Assembly: GCA_003223245.1 (NCBI GenBank)
Contig: QHYI01000130.1
Coordinates: 76,986-140,985, forward strand
Reading direction: 5' to 3'
Source of the DNA: Acidobacteriota bacterium
Lineage (GTDB): Bacteria; Acidobacteriota; Terriglobia; Acidiferrales; UBA7541
DNA: 64,000 nt
Shown here: in pieces, positions 1,559-13,329 of the stretch
Position numbering within the stretch: the stretch's first letter is position 1
Layout: each line of letters starts with the position of its first letter
Translations under genes and position numbers: made by a program
The notes under the pieces: model-generated
What the model was told of the DNA's origin: nothing
Databases searched by the model: none
The model's input: the letters and a program-made list of their open reading frames with translations, nothing else

Positions 1559-2959
1559 CTAATCGGCACTGACGGCTTGGCGAGCGGGGCGGCTCTCCGG
1601 GGGAAGAATGTCTCGTGGACGGGCTTGCCGCGATTCCAGCAGCACGCGCACACCATACCGAGGACGCAGCGTTACGGACGCGAGCGGCACGACCGGATGA
1701 TGCGGCACCAAATGCAGCCGGTACTTTTGTGCTACCGTGGCCAAAATCAGCGCCGCTTCCATCGAAGCAAAATTATTTCCGATGCATTGGCGCGGGCCGC
1801 CGCCAAACGGGAAATACGCAAATCGCGGGATGCGCTTTGCGAAATCGCCCTCCCAGCGCTCGGGGCGAAATTCCTCCGGCGCATGGTACCAGCGCGTATC
1901 GCGATGGACGACCCACTGCGCCATCGCTACACCCATCCCTTTTTTCACCGGGTAGCCGGCCAGTTCGTGATTTTCGACGGCGATGCGCGCCAGTCCCCAA
2001 GCGGGAGGATAGAGTCGCAACGATTCGGTGATGACGTTCGCAGTGTAAGGGAGGCGCGCGAGATCATCGATCGAGGGCGCGCGCCCACCGAGGACCTCGT
2101 CGAGTTCCGCGTGGAGCTTCGCTTCCACAGCAGGATTCCGCGCCAGCAGCCACCACGTCCAGGAAAGAGAGCTGGCCGTAGTTTCGTGCCCGGCAAGAAA
2201 AAGCGTGATGGTTTCATCGCGGAGCTGCTTGTCGGTCATGCGCAAACCGTCTTCGTCCTGCGCGCGAAGAAGCATGGAGAGAAGATCTCCGGTGTCGCGG
2301 CCAGAGGTGCGGCGTTCGCCGATGATGCGGTAGATAATGCTTTCGATGAAGGCGATTTCGCGCTTGATGCGGAGGTTCGTGAGGGTGGGCACCCAATGCG
2401 GAACAAACAGAGTACGGCGAAAATCGGCGCCAAGTTCAAGAAGCAATTCGAGGGATTTCCCGACGTCTTTGGCGTCGCGCGCAACGTCGGCGTCAAACAA
2501 AGTCTTGGCCACGATTTGCAGCGTCAGCCGCATCATCTCTTGATGCACGTCGCGTTCTTCTCCGGCGCGCCAGCTTTCCAGCATGCGCTCGGTGTACTCC
2601 ACCATGGTTTGCGCATAGGCGGCAATACGGGCGCGATGAAACGCCGGCTGCACCAAGCGACGCTGCCGCAGCCAGAAGTCTCCTTCGCTTGTGAGCAGGC
2701 CGTCGCCAAAAACGTGCCGGTAGGCGCGCAGTACGCGGCCCTTGATGTAGCGGCGCGGATGGCTTACCAGCACTTCTTCAATGAGCTGGGGATGATTGAT
2801 AAAAATATTGCGGAAATTGACGACGCGGACACCGACGACATCCCCGTAGCGCGCCAAATCACTGAACATCTCGAGCGGGCTTTGATTCAACGCGCGGAAG
2901 GACCAACCTTTGAGCCCGCTATAGGGGCCGGGGGGGAATTTGTTGCGGCGGAACCACAT
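1559..2959 (-). CDS. Cytochrome P450
   Basis: This is a full-length 466-aa bacterial cytochrome P450, a haem-thiolate monooxygenase needing separate electron-transfer partners, none of which are encoded nearby. All landmarks are present: the I-helix oxygen-activation motif AGHETT at about 256-261, the ExxR motif as ESLR at 312-315, and the haem-binding loop FGGGPRQCIG with the axial cysteine at about residue 392. The N-terminus (MWFRRNKFPPGP) has the proline-rich start of CYP102/CYP4-like soluble or peripheral enzymes and no clear membrane anchor. Fatty acid or alkane hydroxylation is possible but not shown by the sequence. It is convergent with the site-2 protease and stands alone. Confidence 0.93.
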   Translation of the reverse strand: MWFRRNKFPPGPYSGLKGWSFRALNQSPLEMFSDLARYGDVVGVRVVNFRNIFINHPQLIEEVLVSHPRRYIKGRVLRAYRHVFGDGLLTSEGDFWLRQRRLVQPAFHRARIAAYAQTMVEYTERMLESWRAGEERDVHQEMMRLTLQIVAKTLFDADVARDAKDVGKSLELLLELGADFRRTLFVPHWVPTLTNLRIKREIAFIESIIYRIIGERRTSGRDTGDLLSMLLRAQDEDGLRMTDKQLRDETITLFLAGHETTASSLSWTWWLLARNPAVEAKLHAELDEVLGGRAPSIDDLARLPYTANVITESLRLYPPAWGLARIAVENHELAGYPVKKGMGVAMAQWVVHRDTRWYHAPEEFRPERWEGDFAKRIPRFAYFPFGGGPRQCIGNNFASMEAALILATVAQKYRLHLVPHHPVVPLASVTLRPRYGVRVLLESRQARPRDILPPESRPARQAVSAD

Positions 2960-3034
2960 GCGCCCATGCTAAGCCGCAGGCTTGGCGGGGGTCAACGCGG
3001 GTGAATCCTGCACTAAATGGTATGGGGTAAAAGA

Positions 3035-3613
3035 CTACTCCGCACGCAGCGCCCGGATGAGAAAGCCGCCGCTCCGGGAATCTATGGTGACCTTGGAGAG
3101 TCCTGCGGCCAGCAATCTTTGCTTCGCGGTCGCCGGGTCCAGGGGCACGTAGGTGCTTTTGATATGGCCGACGCGGTGAATCCAGTGATCGGAAATATCG
3201 AATGCCAGGAAAACCCCTCCTGGCCGAAGCACGCGGCCCATTTCGGAAAAAGCGCGATCCTGCAACGCCCCGGATTTCAGATGGTGCAGCATGAGGATCG
3301 CAATCGCGGAGGAAAATGTGGCATCCGGGAAAGGCAGAGTCGCGGCGTCGCCTTGAATAATGCAGACGTTCCGATGCGCTGGCGAATGATTGGCCCGTGC
3401 GCTAAGTTTCAAGGCCAGGGCGTGGTCGTATTCGAGGCTAGTCACGCGAGGCGCGTGACGCGCCAACTCTATGGTCGCGGCGCCCGGGCCGGCGCCGATT
3501 TCCAGAATGTGCTCGCCCAACTTCGCGTCTTGGAGCATCCACGGCAGCAGTTCGCGCCGTGTGAGATAACGCCAAAGAGCCGACCCGCAATACCATTTTT
3601 CAAACCAATTCAT
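3035..3613 (-). CDS. Class I SAM-dependent methyltransferase
   Basis: This is a small Rossmann-fold methyltransferase, 192 aa from the ATG at 3613, which has an AGGA ribosome binding site just upstream. The frame is open ten codons earlier to an ATG at 3643. SAM-binding motif I is ILEIGAGPGAAT, followed by an acidic residue after the second strand (LEYDHA) and a post-motif III RVLRPGGVFLAFD. The arrangement is that of the UbiE/Methyltransf_11 group. The acceptor substrate cannot be inferred. It ends 75 nt before the P450 start on the same strand, so the two could be co-transcribed. Confidence 0.85.
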   Translation of the reverse strand: MNWFEKWYCGSALWRYLTRRELLPWMLQDAKLGEHILEIGAGPGAATIELARHAPRVTSLEYDHALALKLSARANHSPAHRNVCIIQGDAATLPFPDATFSSAIAILMLHHLKSGALQDRAFSEMGRVLRPGGVFLAFDISDHWIHRVGHIKSTYVPLDPATAKQRLLAAGLSKVTIDSRSGGFLIRALRAE

Positions 3614-3733
3614 GCGTTTCCTAGCAAACGTCTGGTCCACCACTTTATCGCGATCGGCAGACGATTACTGCAAAGGCCCAGAAGGAAGCCACATCATTTG
3701 CTGTACGGGATATTATTCAGACGGTGGAACGAA

Positions 3734-4726
<993 letters not shown>

Positions 4727-6812: not shown

Positions 6813-7370
6813 ATGCTTCACATCAAGGGCACCGCCGTAATGGACGCGATGGAAGCGATTAAAGCACGCGCCGGACGAGAAGAATTAGAGAAAATCTTGT
6901 CGCTTCTTGATGTGGAAGCCCAAGAAACCTTCCGCGGGCCCCTCTCTCTCTCTTCGTGGTACTCCTGTGATGCGTTTGCCCGTTTTCTCGAAGTCGACAT
7001 CCGGGAAACCGCCGGGGGCAACGAAAAAGAATTGATCAGGCGCTCGGAAGCGGTAATCGAGAAGCAGCTAAGCGGAATCTATAAAATGTTCGTCAAGCTG
7101 GGCTCGCCTGAGTTTGTCATCCGCAGAATCGCCGCGGTGCACTCCACCTACTTCGACGGCGTGCAGATTATTCCGGAGATGCAAGGACCGAAAAGCGCAA
7201 CCATCCAGTACGTCGGATTTTCTCGTAACCACCGGATCATGGGATTCGCCATCATCGGCTTCTTTAGAAAGGCGTTGGAGATTTCTGGCGCAAAGAAAGT
7301 GGACGTACACTTCACCGTTCCTATCGAGGCCGGCGAGAAATTCTGCGAACTGGCATTGAGCTGGGATTGA
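6813..7370 (+). CDS. Hypothetical protein resembling TIGR02265/DUF2378 (HNOB-like fold)
   Basis: This is a soluble 185-aa protein. The C-terminal half (GFFRKALEISGAKKVDVHFT, ending ELALSWD) matches the pattern of TIGR02265/DUF2378 proteins, which are related to haem-NO-binding domains and were noted mainly in myxobacteria. No haem-ligand histidine could be assigned, so gas sensing is not claimed. A GGGAG site lies 12 nt before the ATG at 6813; the ATG at 6840 is an alternative start. It stands alone between divergent small genes. The coding call is firm and the family call is tentative. Confidence 0.7.
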   Translation: MLHIKGTAVMDAMEAIKARAGREELEKILSLLDVEAQETFRGPLSLSSWYSCDAFARFLEVDIRETAGGNEKELIRRSEAVIEKQLSGIYKMFVKLGSPEFVIRRIAAVHSTYFDGVQIIPEMQGPKSATIQYVGFSRNHRIMGFAIIGFFRKALEISGAKKVDVHFTVPIEAGEKFCELALSWD

Positions 7371-7791: not shown

Positions 7792-7977
7792 GCACGATTC
7801 CTGGTGGGAAATTCTCGGCCGCCGCTCAACGCCTTTCTATCCGGCAACAGTCGTCAAACTATCAGCCTTACCGCCGCCTTGTGAAGGGACCCTCTGTTTC
7901 AGCCGGATTGGACCTAGCCATTTGGCGGATGTAATCGCCTGGGCGCGTGCGGCATCTTGTTCATGGAGGTTCCCCAA

Positions 7978-8892
7978 ATGTCCACAGAACTGATTGCTCT
8001 TTCAAACGCTCTGGCGCAGGCCACCGAGCGCTCCGCAGCAAGCACTGTTGCCCTTCACACCGAGGCGCGCGGCTCGTCGAGCGGCATCATCTGGCGCAAC
8101 GGTGTGATCGTTACCGCGGAGCACGCGCTCGGTCGCGATGAAGACATTCAACTGACCTTGCCGGATGGCCGCGTTGTCACCGCCACACTTACAGGCCGCG
8201 ATCCATCCACCGACCTGGCCGTATTGAAATGCCCGGAAGCCACCTCACCGTTTACAGAAACCGGCGATGTCTACCGAACCAAGCCCGGAAATCTCGCGCT
8301 TGTTGTCGGCCGCACGCGCGCGAGCGGGCCCGTTGTCGCGCTGGGCGCCGTCAGCCTGGTTGTCGCCGAGCGGCGCGCCTGGACGGGCGCAGCGCTTGCG
8401 CCCTACATTCGGCTCGATATCGGCTTGCAACCCACTGCCGTGGGCGGAGCGGTCATAGACGCGCACGGCCGACTAATCGGCATGGCAACGCCACGTTTCG
8501 CGCGCTTCGGCGCCATTGCCATTCCCGCTCCTACCGTCAGCCGCGTCGCCGACGTGCTGCTCGAAAAGGGCCGCATTCCTCGCGGCTATCTTGGTGTGGG
8601 CTTGCAGGCGGTGCGCCTGCCGGATGCGCTTCGGCGAACCCTGAATCGGGACGCCAAGACCGCAGCCATTGTCCTCGAAGTTGCGCCGGAAGGCCCCGCG
8701 CATAAGGCCGGGATCGTCATCGGCGATATTCTTGTGGCGCTCGCGGGCCAACCGGTCGCTCAGCTGGAGGATGTTCACGGGCAACTGGGCGCGGAGTCCA
8801 TCGGCAAATCGCTCCCGGTCCAATTCATTCGCGGCGGCGCGCTCGAGCAGGCCAGCATTGTTGTTGGTGAGCGCGCGCACGGAGCCGAATAA
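7978..8892 (+). CDS. HtrA/DegP-like S1C protein with degenerate active site, plus PDZ domain
   Basis: This is a trypsin-fold S1C protein followed by a PDZ domain, 304 aa from the ATG at 7978 (GGAGG 9 nt upstream). His49 (VTAEHAL) and Asp79 (PSTDLAVLK) are conserved. The segment that should read GNSGGP reads PTAVGGA at about 152-158, so the catalytic serine is Val155 and the oxyanion loop is altered. It therefore should not be an active protease. The PDZ domain begins near RIPRGYLGVGLQ. There is no obvious signal peptide. The next gene, an intact homologue, starts 1 nt after this stop codon, which suggests a co-expressed active/inactive pair. Confidence 0.85.
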   Translation: MSTELIALSNALAQATERSAASTVALHTEARGSSSGIIWRNGVIVTAEHALGRDEDIQLTLPDGRVVTATLTGRDPSTDLAVLKCPEATSPFTETGDVYRTKPGNLALVVGRTRASGPVVALGAVSLVVAERRAWTGAALAPYIRLDIGLQPTAVGGAVIDAHGRLIGMATPRFARFGAIAIPAPTVSRVADVLLEKGRIPRGYLGVGLQAVRLPDALRRTLNRDAKTAAIVLEVAPEGPAHKAGIVIGDILVALAGQPVAQLEDVHGQLGAESIGKSLPVQFIRGGALEQASIVVGERAHGAE

Positions 8893-8893
8893 G

Positions 8894-9760
8894 ATGACCA
8901 TCCCGGGATTTGGCGAAATCGCGGAACAACTAAGGCGCTCGACAGTTCTGATTCATTCCGGCGGTCGCGGGTCGGGCTCTGGCGTGATTTGGTCGAGCGA
9001 CGGCTTCTTGCTGACCAACGCGCATGTCGTTCGCAGCAGGCGCCCCACGGTTCAGCTGTGGGACGGCCGCGAATTCCAAGCCACGGTTCACTCGCGCGAC
9101 CCCTTTCGCGATCTCGCGCAACTGCGCATCGACGCCACGAACCTCCCTGCCGCTTCTGCGGCGGATTCTTCCCTGCTGCGCCCCGGTGAGCTCGCCATTG
9201 CCATCGGCAATCCAATGGGTTTTGTCGGCGCGCTTGCGACCGGGGTGATTCACGGCGTTGGCCCACTTCGCGGCCTCGGCCCGCACTCCTGGGTGCAGGC
9301 CGAAGTGCGTCTTGCGCCTGGAAACTCCGGCGGTCCGCTAGCTGACGCGCGTGGCCGCGTTGTCGGGATCAATACCATGGTCGCGGGCCGCCTGGCGCTC
9401 GCGATTCCCAGCAACGCGGTACGCGACCTTCTTTCTGCAGCTCCGAGCGATGGCCGGCTTGGCGTCACGGTTCACCCCGCGTTCGTCCCTCGGCCTTATC
9501 GCGCCAAAACCTTCGGCTTGGTCATTCTCGAAGTCGAACCAGAGAGTCCCGCGGCTCTAGCCTCGCTTCTGCCGGGCGACATTCTCCTGGGCACCGGGGA
9601 GCGACGTTTTGCTTCGCTGGAAGATTTGGGGCGCGCACTTCAAGGAAATGGCCCGCGTGTCTTGCGGTTGGAATTCCTGCGCGGCGATTATGAGCGAATC
9701 CGCCGGGTCAGCGTCGAACTCGGGAATCGGTTGGCGGCAAGGAGCTCCGCCGCGGCGTGA
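8894..9760 (+). CDS. HtrA/DegP-like S1C serine protease with PDZ domain
   Basis: This is a 288-aa trypsin-fold protease with an intact triad: His44 in TNAHVV, Asp73 in FRDLAQL and Ser145 in GNSGGPL. A C-terminal PDZ domain follows from about residue 195. The ATG at 8894 sits 1 nt after the stop of the degenerate paralogue, so translation is likely coupled. There is no recognisable signal peptide, unlike classical periplasmic DegP. Its stop overlaps the GTG of the downstream regulator, forming a tight three-gene operon. Protein quality control or regulated proteolysis is the family role; the substrate is unknown. Confidence 0.88.
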   Translation: MTIPGFGEIAEQLRRSTVLIHSGGRGSGSGVIWSSDGFLLTNAHVVRSRRPTVQLWDGREFQATVHSRDPFRDLAQLRIDATNLPAASAADSSLLRPGELAIAIGNPMGFVGALATGVIHGVGPLRGLGPHSWVQAEVRLAPGNSGGPLADARGRVVGINTMVAGRLALAIPSNAVRDLLSAAPSDGRLGVTVHPAFVPRPYRAKTFGLVILEVEPESPAALASLLPGDILLGTGERRFASLEDLGRALQGNGPRVLRLEFLRGDYERIRRVSVELGNRLAARSSAAA

Positions 9761-10410
9761 TCTCCGTTTTCATTGTCGCGGCTTCCCCGCTGGCGCGCGC
9801 CGGGCTGGAAAATCTGTTGGTGGCTCGTCAAATCGAAGTCGCCGGCAGCGTTAGAGCCCTTGCCGACCTCGACGGCCGCTTGGATGACGCTCCGACCGAC
9901 GCCATTGTGATTGATTCCGCCGGAGAGCGGTTTGAATCATTTCTTGATGCCATCATTGCTTCGGGAGTTCCGTCGGATTTTATCGTGGTCCTTCTCGTGG
10001 AACCTGCTTCACTCGGGGCTTCGTCAGCGGCGCTCGGTGCGGGAATTCGCGCGGTCCTGCCTAACGATGTTTCACCCGACCAACTCGTCGCGGCGCTGCA
10101 AGCTGCGACAAGCGGCCTGCTGGTGATGCACCCCGCGCAGGTTCCGCTGACGGTCAATGTCAATGGATTCGCTTCCGCACCAGGGCGCTCGCAAGGGCTC
10201 GATGAACTCGCCGAAGCACTTACGCCACGCGAGAGCGAAGTTTTGCAGATGCTAGCCAGCGGGCTCCCCAACAAAGAGATCGCCGCAAAGCTCGCCATTT
10301 CCGAGCACACGGTAAAATTTCACGTGGCATCCATAATGGGCAAGCTCGGCGCGGCCAGCCGCACCGAAGCCGTTGCTCTCGGGATCCGCCGCGGCCTAGT
10401 GCTCCTCTAA
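9757..10410 (+). CDS. LuxR/NarL-type response regulator with atypical receiver domain
   Basis: This is a 217-aa two-domain protein: an N-terminal receiver-like domain (about 1-120) and a C-terminal LuxR/NarL helix-turn-helix (about 150-212, TPRESEVLQMLASGLPNKEI). Asp53 (DAIVIDSAG) sits at the usual phosphorylation position. The acidic pair that normally binds Mg2+ after the first strand is replaced by AAS (VFIVAASPLARAG), so phosphorylation is doubtful. The GTG start at 9757 overlaps the preceding protease stop (GTGA), so the regulator is translated with the HtrA pair. No sensor kinase is encoded nearby. Confidence 0.87.
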   Translation: MISVFIVAASPLARAGLENLLVARQIEVAGSVRALADLDGRLDDAPTDAIVIDSAGERFESFLDAIIASGVPSDFIVVLLVEPASLGASSAALGAGIRAVLPNDVSPDQLVAALQAATSGLLVMHPAQVPLTVNVNGFASAPGRSQGLDELAEALTPRESEVLQMLASGLPNKEIAAKLAISEHTVKFHVASIMGKLGAASRTEAVALGIRRGLVLL

Positions 10411-11715: not shown

Positions 11716-13329
11716 CTATGGTAGAACGTGCAGTTCCAGGTTCACGGAATGCAACAGAGTTCCGCTCGCACCGGTGATCCTCAATTCGTACTTTCCTGGC
11801 TCGGCGGCGGTGTCCACCTGCAAGGTCAGCGCAGCGTTGCCCGAGCCGGTGATCGTCGGCGGGTCAAAGCTCGCGAACGTGCCGGAGGGCAGGCCGCTGA
11901 CGCTGAAATCCACCGTCCCGGTGAAACCCTGCAAAGCCACAACGCTGAAGGTAAAGGTTTCTGCAGCACCGCGATGAATCAGGATTGTTTGACGAGGCGG
12001 TTCAGTGAGAGAAAAGTCGCCCGCAGAGGCAGCGTTGGCCGCCAGCGCTTGTACCAGGTCCAACCGGCCATTACCCATGTCGGCTCCGATGGGCACGGCA
12101 TGGGCTACGGCGGAAGCGGCCTGCGACTCATTGATGCCAGGCGTTTGATTCAGTAACAGCGCAGCTGCCCCGGCAACAAAGGGCGCGCTAAACGAGGTTC
12201 CCCATCCAGCCCCGTAGACCCCAAACGGATAAGTGCTGATGACGGCTTCCCCGGGGGCCGCTACCCAAACGATGGCATCGCCAAAGTCGGAGAAAGTGGA
12301 CCGCTGATCCACGTCGTTCGTGGAGGCCACTCCCATCACGTCGCTTTGAAGTGCCGCCGGATAAACGATTTCCATTGCGCCGTTGTTACCCACCGAGGCA
12401 GTGCAAATCACATTTTGCTGGTTGGCAAAATCGAGGGCTTTGGTTAACTCATCCGAGTTGGACTCGAGGTCGAAGCTCATGTTGATGACGTTGGCGTGGT
12501 GCTGAACCGCAAAGTAAATGGCACTCAAAATATCGGAGAGGAACCCTGTCCCATCGGAATGGAAGGCTTTCAGTGGAAGAAGCTCGGCGTGTGGGGCTAC
12601 AAGATGGATGATGCCCATCACCATGGTGCCATGACCGAAGGCTAGGTACTCAGGATTCCCATCAAGCACGGCAGCAGTCGATTGGTCCAGCACGGCTGCG
12701 GTCGATTGATTCACAACCGCTGCGGGGCAACCGGAACACGAGGGAGGCGGTGTAATTGTCGGATCAAGATCCCTCATCTCGGAGCCGACCGGCAGATTCC
12801 GGGTAAAGTCCCAGCCTGGCAACAAAACACCTTGCAGCGCCGGGTGATCGGGGTCCACACCCGTGTCAATGTCTGCCACGATACCGCTCCCAGCAACGTG
12901 AAACGTGTTTTGCGCCTCCGACACACGGACGATCTGCGCCCCAGGCTGATACACATAGCCACCCTGAACGAACGTGCCGAAGTACTCGACAGGGGTAGTG
13001 TCGGAGAGCCCGGCGGGTATCGGGCCTGTTTGATTCAATCCCGTTACCAGAGCCACCGCTTGATCCTGCTCGATGTTGATCACCCCGGGCGTTTCCAACA
13101 GTTCATCCAAAGCACCATCCAGATCGATCTCCCCAGGAAATGTGACCAGAAAAACGTGACTCAGGTTGGCGTCAAGGCTTTGGACGATCGTACAGCTTAG
13201 TTTCTCGCAAGCCTCCTCGAGCGAGGCGAGACCCGCAGTGTCGCGCACAATGAAGCGCTTGTGGGCGGAAGCGCTCGTGGGCAAGAGCGCGAAGAAGAGC
13301 AAGAAAAAGGACACAACTTTGAGCCTCAT
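11716..13329 (-). CDS. Secreted subtilisin-family (S8) serine peptidase
   Basis: This is a 537-aa exported protease. A signal peptide (cleavage after about TSASA) is followed by an inhibitor-I9-like propeptide to about residue 95 and an S8 domain. The triad is intact: Asp155 (VADIDTGVDPDH), His233 (FGHGTMVMG) and Ser379 (GTSFSAPFVAG). Between Asp and His there is a cysteine pair (CSGC) and a short direct repeat (QSTAAVLD twice). The last 110 residues form an all-beta domain (FTFSVVALQGFTGTVDFSVS), probably Ig-like. It starts 11 nt after the preceding receiver-like gene on the same strand, so the two are likely co-transcribed. Confidence 0.92.
   Translation of the reverse strand: MRLKVVSFFLLFFALLPTSASAHKRFIVRDTAGLASLEEACEKLSCTIVQSLDANLSHVFLVTFPGEIDLDGALDELLETPGVINIEQDQAVALVTGLNQTGPIPAGLSDTTPVEYFGTFVQGGYVYQPGAQIVRVSEAQNTFHVAGSGIVADIDTGVDPDHPALQGVLLPGWDFTRNLPVGSEMRDLDPTITPPPSCSGCPAAVVNQSTAAVLDQSTAAVLDGNPEYLAFGHGTMVMGIIHLVAPHAELLPLKAFHSDGTGFLSDILSAIYFAVQHHANVINMSFDLESNSDELTKALDFANQQNVICTASVGNNGAMEIVYPAALQSDVMGVASTNDVDQRSTFSDFGDAIVWVAAPGEAVISTYPFGVYGAGWGTSFSAPFVAGAAALLLNQTPGINESQAASAVAHAVPIGADMGNGRLDLVQALAANAASAGDFSLTEPPRQTILIHRGAAETFTFSVVALQGFTGTVDFSVSGLPSGTFASFDPPTITGSGNAALTLQVDTAAEPGKYELRITGASGTLLHSVNLELHVLP

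Follow-up and report, generated by a model that had tools for sequence, protein, structure and literature searches.

A dead HtrA, a live HtrA and a NarL-type regulator in acidobacteria: a conserved operon and candidate self-regulated module

What use a bacterium could have for a protease that appears unable to cut, encoded directly in front of an apparently working one and of a transcription regulator, is the question raised by an operon of a soil acidobacterium (Acidobacteriota bacterium, assembly GCA_003223245.1). The window analysed here is a stretch of 64,000 nucleotides of contig QHYI01000130.1 (positions 76,986 to 140,985), and the three genes lie on its forward strand. Gene 1 (7978..8892, ATG start, 304 amino acids) encodes HtrA1, an HtrA-like pseudoprotease with a trypsin fold and a PDZ domain. 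Gene 2 (8894..9760, ATG start, 288 amino acids) encodes HtrA2, an HtrA-like protease with the triad H44/D73/S145, a PDZ domain and the C-terminus -AAA, and gene 3 (9757..10410, GTG start) a NarL/FixJ-type regulator with a LuxR-type helix-turn-helix (HTH), a degenerate receiver and the hydrophobic C-terminus GLVLL. An earlier note on this DNA had described two HtrA-like genes one nucleotide apart, with Val155 in the first and a full triad in the second, and a regulator gene overlapping the second; the sequence bears this out, the overlap being of 4 nucleotides. Comparison with other genomes points to HtrA1 and the regulator as the constant unit of the operon, and we tentatively propose that HtrA1 has been retired from cutting to serve as a peptide-binding partner in a module that regulates itself.

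The first gene has the architecture of the HtrA/Do (S1C) family without its full chemistry. Its translation matches PF13365 (trypsin-like, 73.2 bits) followed by PF13180 (PDZ, 46.7 bits, cut-off 27; residues 203-294, 8584..8859, + strand). In the active site H49 and D79 are present, and sequence and alignment place Val155 (codon GTG, 8440..8442, + strand) at the position of the catalytic serine, with QPTAVGG where PGNSGG is expected and Thr153 as the equivalent of the oxyanion-hole Gly193. With the His-Asp-Ser triad incomplete, gene 1 is predicted to be an HtrA/Do homologue and not an active member. Gene 2 combines the trypsin fold and the PDZ domain with H44, D73 and S145 (codon at 9326..9328, + strand; the Ser is invariant in the HtrA2 alignment), the last within PGNSGG, as expected of the family by sequence, and is predicted to be active. 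Solved DegP-like structures match both proteins over most of their length. No N-terminal signal peptide or membrane anchor, of the kind that a periplasmic stress sensor like DegS would have, was seen by eye in the translations of genes 1 and 2, and we take both to be probably cytoplasmic. The genome of the window has eight Trypsin_2 matches, genes 1 and 2 included.

The dead state is not peculiar to this genome. At the Ser position the 18 nearest relatives (loci L043-L060) all carry Val or Ile, and all keep H49 and D79; a further locus of the same genus (L061, genome G002) keeps Asp, Gly193 and Ser in gene 1, with the His on another contig piece. In 60 loci from the rest of the class the HtrA1 triad is H/D/S in 44, changed in 15 (A, V, D or N at Ser; N, A or P at His; E or G at Asp) and partial in one. 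A tree of the 77 complete HtrA1 proteins, built without the active-site columns and without four truncated proteins (L061, L165, L166, L167), contains 43 with an intact triad, 23 of the 77 having triad and Gly193 together, and 34 dead ones. Parsimony places 12 triad changes on this tree, at least seven of them forced by the starred branches, and gives no direction of change; the dead states differ from one another (V/I, A, D, N), which fits repeated triad loss. Relatives with the serine in the first copy, which the earlier note had held to speak against its idea, do exist (43 of 77, and G002); as far as sequences can tell, they make the dead state of HtrA1 a repeatedly derived one and no artefact. 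The median ratio of non-synonymous to synonymous substitution (dN/dS), for which pairs were usable only at dS < 1.2, was 0.113 for gene 1 (40 of 136 pairs), 0.143 for gene 2 (39 of 105) and 0.185 for gene 3 (23 of 91). The value for gene 1 indicates that the dead copy is kept by purifying selection.

How far does the arrangement itself extend? Gene 1 relatives (50-84% identity) were found in 20 of the 35 other genomes of the genus, one ending at a contig edge (G011) and one in two pieces (G002). Gene 2 accompanies them in 19 of the 20, G011 being the exception, which makes 20 of 36 with the window's own genome. All 19 loci (L043-L061) preserve the order 1-2-3; the gap of one nucleotide between genes 1 and 2 recurs in 18 of them (18/18 in L043-L060) and the overlap of 4 nucleotides between genes 2 and 3 in 17 (16/18 in L043-L060), the exceptions being L057, with an in-frame TGA in gene 2, and L059, with a gap of 9 nucleotides. 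Of 399 genomes of the class, 82 were matched by a profile of 21 gene 1 proteins with scores of at least 193 bits; no other HtrA scored above 187, and the truncated G011 protein reached 175. Sixty of the 62 matches outside the genus make up the class locus set (G158 and G168 enter no count). The regulator is present in 57 of the 60; in the remaining three the stretch ends before it (L119, L165) or is broken (L117). HtrA2 is present in 44, overlapping the regulator by 4 nucleotides in 36 of 43 loci, and was not seen in 16, two of which are broken (L146, L167) and one of which ends early (L165), so that 13 absences seem real. The three-gene order that the earlier note wanted sought in other acidobacteria thus recurs (19/19 genus loci, 44/60 class loci with HtrA2); the order is kept in the genus, while the 16 class loci with no visible gene 2 show that it is not universal. 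This recurrence in many acidobacteria suggests that the dead protease binds or senses something and is no longer an enzyme.

In HtrA2 the triad and its GNS context are intact in all 43 class loci with a fully covered catalytic region and in all 20 genus loci (the window and 19 others), 63 of 63 altogether. The HtrA1 triad has been lost many times while that of HtrA2 was kept, so the conserved feature of HtrA1 is not cutting. A profile of HtrA2 gave 65 matches of at least 196 bits in the 399 genomes, 62 of them directly behind an HtrA1 match; two more (G422, G397), which begin where a contig does, have the regulator behind them, and the last (G259) stands apart and is broken. Several HtrA2 proteins (e.g. 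L112, L113, L131, L158, L159) have no PDZ part, the profile match ending at about position 182. The C-terminal -AA (window 9738-9757) is found in 52 of 59 HtrA2 proteins (L054, L057, L117, L149, L156 and L166 left out) against 43 of 747 background open reading frames (ORFs), HtrA2s included. It also occurs on HtrA2 proteins without PDZ and where the gene overlap does not force it, and recalls ssrA-type degrons or a PDZ ligand. Two genus loci have a damaged gene 2 beside an intact gene 1, by an internal deletion behind the Ser (L054, genome G013, 1730-2368) or the in-frame TGA (L057, genome G026, 2837-3697); either assembly error or recent decay could account for them.

A way to separate the essential from the accessory parts of the operon is to follow its components outside the class. 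A tree of 70 HtrAs groups every regulator-linked HtrA1 protein in one clade (100/99) and places HtrA2 in a separate clade (100/99), nearer to ordinary HtrAs. Tandem duplication of a single HtrA, considered as the origin of the pair, was rejected, HtrA1 and HtrA2 falling in separate starred clades. HtrA1 relatives adjoin the regulator in other acidobacterial classes (L170-L173, L175); in L173 and L175 the HtrA1 has Ala at the Ser position and a live HtrA of another lineage adjoins the pair. Five plasmid records from three other phyla carry HtrA1 relatives of this kind. In Paraburkholderia sprentiae (42%), Bradyrhizobium sp. Ash2021, Rubrobacter indicoceani and Deinococcus sp. KNUC1210 they stand beside a response regulator, and in P. 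phymatum the HtrA is accompanied by the start (receiver end) of an unannotated regulator-like frame; the HtrA match in Rhodococcus has no regulator adjoining. By their translations, the Bradyrhizobium and Rubrobacter HtrA1 have neither Ser nor His at the expected places, and in Rubrobacter a live HtrA (PGNSGG) lies behind the regulator. The separate clades and the linkage to the regulator identify the core as HtrA1 plus regulator, which, on sequence comparison, is the constant unit, gene 2 being an add-on. The functional reading of the earlier note, in which the dead copy acts on the live one and the regulator is a target of proteolysis, was in this respect too narrow; the dead-live-regulator order on which it rested is conserved and under selection. 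Also observed outside the class were two loci (L208, L209) in which a dead HtrA1 and regulator are convergent to a live HtrA, an independent dead/live neighbourhood.

The regulator is itself atypical. Gene 3 matches GerE (81.5 bits, above the cut-off), no Pfam match to a receiver family was obtained, and its profile aligns over the full length with the structures of NarL (1a04), VraR and DevR, as expected of NarL/FixJ architecture. We examined the phosphorylation residues in 70 regulators (67 of the 77 acidobacterial ones and three from plasmids, ten short ones being left out), numbered by NarL: the Lys is absent from all 70, the Asp is present in 23, one or other residue of the acid pair in nine, and the full set (acid pair, Asp, Lys) in none. 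At its other end the protein is strikingly uniform, the last residue being L, I, V or F in 77 of 77 (L156 left out) and the form GxxxPhi occurring in 76; none of the 15 other NarL/LuxR proteins found by profile in the window's genome has this end. HtrA PDZ domains, such as those of DegS and the human HtrA proteins, bind hydrophobic C-termini, hence gene 1 and gene 3 may be in contact. Judged by sequence, the lost receiver chemistry and the hydrophobic C-terminus would fit a direct protein partner and a proteolysis target equally well.

Upstream of gene 1 two short segments stand out from their surroundings: an operator-like palindrome, CCTAGCCATTTGGCGGATGTA (7913..7933, + strand), which ends 44 nucleotides before the gene 1 start and is near-invariant in seven close genomes, and a conserved leader, TGCGGCATCTTGTTCATGGAGG (7948..7969, + strand), which includes the ribosome-binding site and is identical in all but one base in the same genomes. 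Outside these two the upstream DNA of the seven genomes diverges. Elements of the CCTAGCCATTTGGCGGATGTA type precede HtrA1 across the class: a matrix trained on 79 upstream regions scores 73 of these very regions above the 99% level of shuffled sequences. A fixed pattern of the palindrome core was found at 52 of the 79 class loci, against a mean of 0.87 and a maximum of 5 in shuffled sequences, and in six of nine regions from outside the class that were not used in training (P. sprentiae, P. phymatum, Bradyrhizobium, Deinococcus, L208 and L211). In the window's genome CCTAGCCATTTGGCGGATGTA has a single copy at up to three mismatches (reversed control: 1), and a degenerate pattern allowing one mismatch gave six sites against three for the reversed control, the only exact one being at the operon, so we claim no regulon. 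An inverted-repeat finder run on the upstream region returned nothing of 7 nucleotides or more, the element being visible by comparison only. Some loci (L051-L054, L111, L121, L125, L134, L136) have, as seen by eye, another palindrome further upstream than the main element; its type is CCTGCC-N4-GGCAGG or ACCT...AGGT.

BldM, a Streptomyces protein, is also of the NarL/FixJ type. According to the accessible part of PMC4125116, its footprinted palindrome has a 16-bp box, TCACcCgnncGgGTGA, and this shares a CCC-N4-GGG core with our upstream element. Because of this likeness, and because gene 3 is the only DNA-binding protein always present, gene 3 is the likely candidate to bind the element. BldM and WhiI resemble gene 3 in having a degenerate or unused phosphorylation pocket and no adjoining kinase. 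They differ in acting as homo- and heterodimers on developmental genes, and no HtrA partner is mentioned in the part of that source available (PMC4125116).

These observations taken together can be read in several ways, among which we favour, tentatively, a self-regulated cytoplasmic HtrA module with gene 1 as a retired peptide-binding partner. Gene 3 would be a phosphorylation-independent NarL-type regulator that binds the palindrome and controls its own operon. Gene 1 would no longer cut in this lineage and, with protease fold and PDZ kept, would most likely serve to bind peptides, as a sensor or a partner; the PDZ domain would hold the regulator, perhaps via the conserved hydrophobic C-terminus. 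Competing C-termini, from misfolded or cut proteins, would make gene 1 let the regulator go, and gene 2, the always-live HtrA, would be the output protease. Titration loops in which a chaperone or protease takes part are established elsewhere (HrcA-GroE, HspR-DnaK, CtsR-McsB) and share the proposed logic, a quality-control protein holding the regulator of its own operon; we know of none with an HtrA pseudoprotease. A wider claim, that this is an undescribed cross-phylum signalling module whose atypical NarL-type regulator has, in place of a histidine kinase, a protein of the HtrA type that is often a pseudoprotease, is possible and rather more doubtful. There the PDZ domain would sense the free C-termini of damaged proteins and release a regulator acting almost only on its own operon, and live HtrAs of different lineages would have been recruited more than once.

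The second reading in our order of preference, which we consider somewhat unlikely, takes the dead HtrA1 for a regulatory subunit or activator of the live HtrA2, in a mixed trimer or by direct contact, with the regulator controlling expression only. The translational coupling across a gap of one nucleotide, the near absence of HtrA2 without HtrA1 (62 of 65 follow it directly, and two more begin at a contig end) and the dead HtrA1 beside a live HtrA of another lineage in L173, L175 and Rubrobacter would all be expected from it, and it has a precedent in MamO and MamE, an HtrA pseudoprotease encoded with a live HtrA, in which the dead one can be needed for the live one (PMC4794232, as far as its accessible part goes). 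HtrA1 and the regulator occur without HtrA2, however, in 13 of 60 class loci (L146, L165 and L167 excluded), and the HtrA1 of L136 and L164 is dead with no HtrA2 in its locus, so its role must extend beyond HtrA2. Such loci also weigh on the third and unlikely reading, the closest to the idea of the earlier note, in which the regulator is a substrate of HtrA2, brought to it or shielded from it by HtrA1. The shared operon, the hydrophobic tail of the regulator and the PDZ domain on both HtrAs agree with that feedback; against it, the regulator occurs without HtrA2, and several HtrA2 proteins have no PDZ part. The three readings are not fully exclusive. That HtrA1 is simply a decaying or redundant copy with no function seems very improbable: repeated triad losses, the 15 of 36 genus genomes without the module and a genome (G035) in which only a regulator fragment is left are what decay would produce, but purifying selection is as strong on the dead copy as on the live one, and the open frame, the exact gap and H49/D79 are preserved in 18 of 18 nearest relatives.

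Several observations count against the retired-partner reading that we favour. The triad is still present in 43 of 77 HtrA1 proteins, so that for many species proteolysis by HtrA1 may be important. A dead HtrA1 was found in 32 of 62 loci with HtrA2 and in 2 of 14 without; with kinship taken into account this association is not significant (four independent pairs, L146 left out of the test). No element above the 99% null level was found in six of the 79 class upstream regions, and the core was not found before the HtrA1 of Rubrobacter, L209 and L212, three of the nine regions outside the class. The conserved hydrophobic end of gene 3 may serve dimer packing and not PDZ binding. For gene 1 AlphaFold2 gave a poor model, with a predicted local distance difference test score (pLDDT) of 45.6 from a four-row alignment, and the absence of the module from 15 of 36 genus genomes marks it as dispensable.

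Placed among known systems, the operon is closest in design to MamO/MamE and only in part similar to it. Magnetotactic bacteria are reported to have evolved such dead/live HtrA pairs independently, and a dead and a live HtrA, repeated inactivation and a discussion of the oxyanion-hole Gly193 are common to both cases in the available part of that paper (PMC4794232). MamO is, in contrast, a protein of the periplasm or magnetosome with a TauE-like transporter domain and metal-binding histidines (same source and extent), and gene 1 has PDZ instead of the TauE-like domain and sits with a transcription regulator. The MamO model gives gene 1 26.7 bits against a cut-off of 800, and with PDZ as its C-terminal domain gene 1 falls outside the MamO family. 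DegP, DegQ, DegS and HhoA (S1C) share with genes 1 and 2 the trypsin and PDZ fold and the DegP-like structure matches; unlike these, genes 1 and 2 reach only 152.9 and 151.2 bits against the TIGR02037 cut-off of 416.2, are tied to a NarL-type regulator and have no signal peptide visible by eye. The earlier note knew of no described system with this arrangement. For the three-gene set this stands, no paper on it being found in the open PubMed Central (PMC) literature, whose coverage leaves out most subscription journals; it does not stand for the dead/live HtrA pair, which is known from MamO/MamE (PMC4794232, in the part accessible). Compared with that pair, the novelty lies in the regulator, in the apparent solubility and in how widely the module occurs. 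Evolution has paired active with inactive proteases more than once, but examples among bacterial HtrAs are scarce, and that of MamO/MamE belongs to the magnetosome membrane. The present module is compact, with three genes, looks soluble and comes in dozens of natural variants, among them live, dead and PDZ-less forms and forms with or without the live partner. Since its HtrA1 has lost the triad repeatedly and the neighbouring HtrA2 has always kept it, the module gives direct access to the question of what function is left to an HtrA that does not cut. For response regulators incapable of phosphorylation it supplies a likely partner, together with a defined candidate DNA element.

The genomic surroundings deserve a comment. 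In ten genus loci, about half, the module lies inside a cluster of genes for a thioester reductase, a CsaB-like transferase, two AMP ligases, an enoyl-CoA hydratase, an ACP-like ORF, DAGK and PlsC, which looks like modified-lipid synthesis (e.g. L053, 209-12224; also L049, L051, L058-L060). Both flanks were seen in L049, L050, L051, L053, L054 and L057-L060, and one in L068. A lipid-cluster function for the module was considered and dropped: in the window's genome the cluster (L073) lies elsewhere and has no module, the CsaB-like marker is present in 36 of 36 genus genomes (G012 in part), and no operator-like site was found in 20 cluster loci (L073-L092). The link is therefore one of location in some relatives, not shown as one of function. 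In G035 only a fragment of the regulator HTH is left (L092, 8662-8850, - strand), at the place that the module occupies in relatives, flanked by the genes for enoyl-CoA hydratase and ACP, so the module has also been lost and the fragment is its relic; the three genes move and vanish together.

Closer to the operon, the window contains an ORF of 185 amino acids without Pfam match (6813-7370), also found near the module in L044, L045 and L048, and an aldo/keto-reductase-like gene (3734-4726, by eye); a similar gene, again by eye, lies directly behind a different, signal-less HtrA in L071 (6079-7068). An ORF on the opposite strand (11716-13329, - strand) resembles, by eye and with no search run, a secreted subtilisin-type protease.

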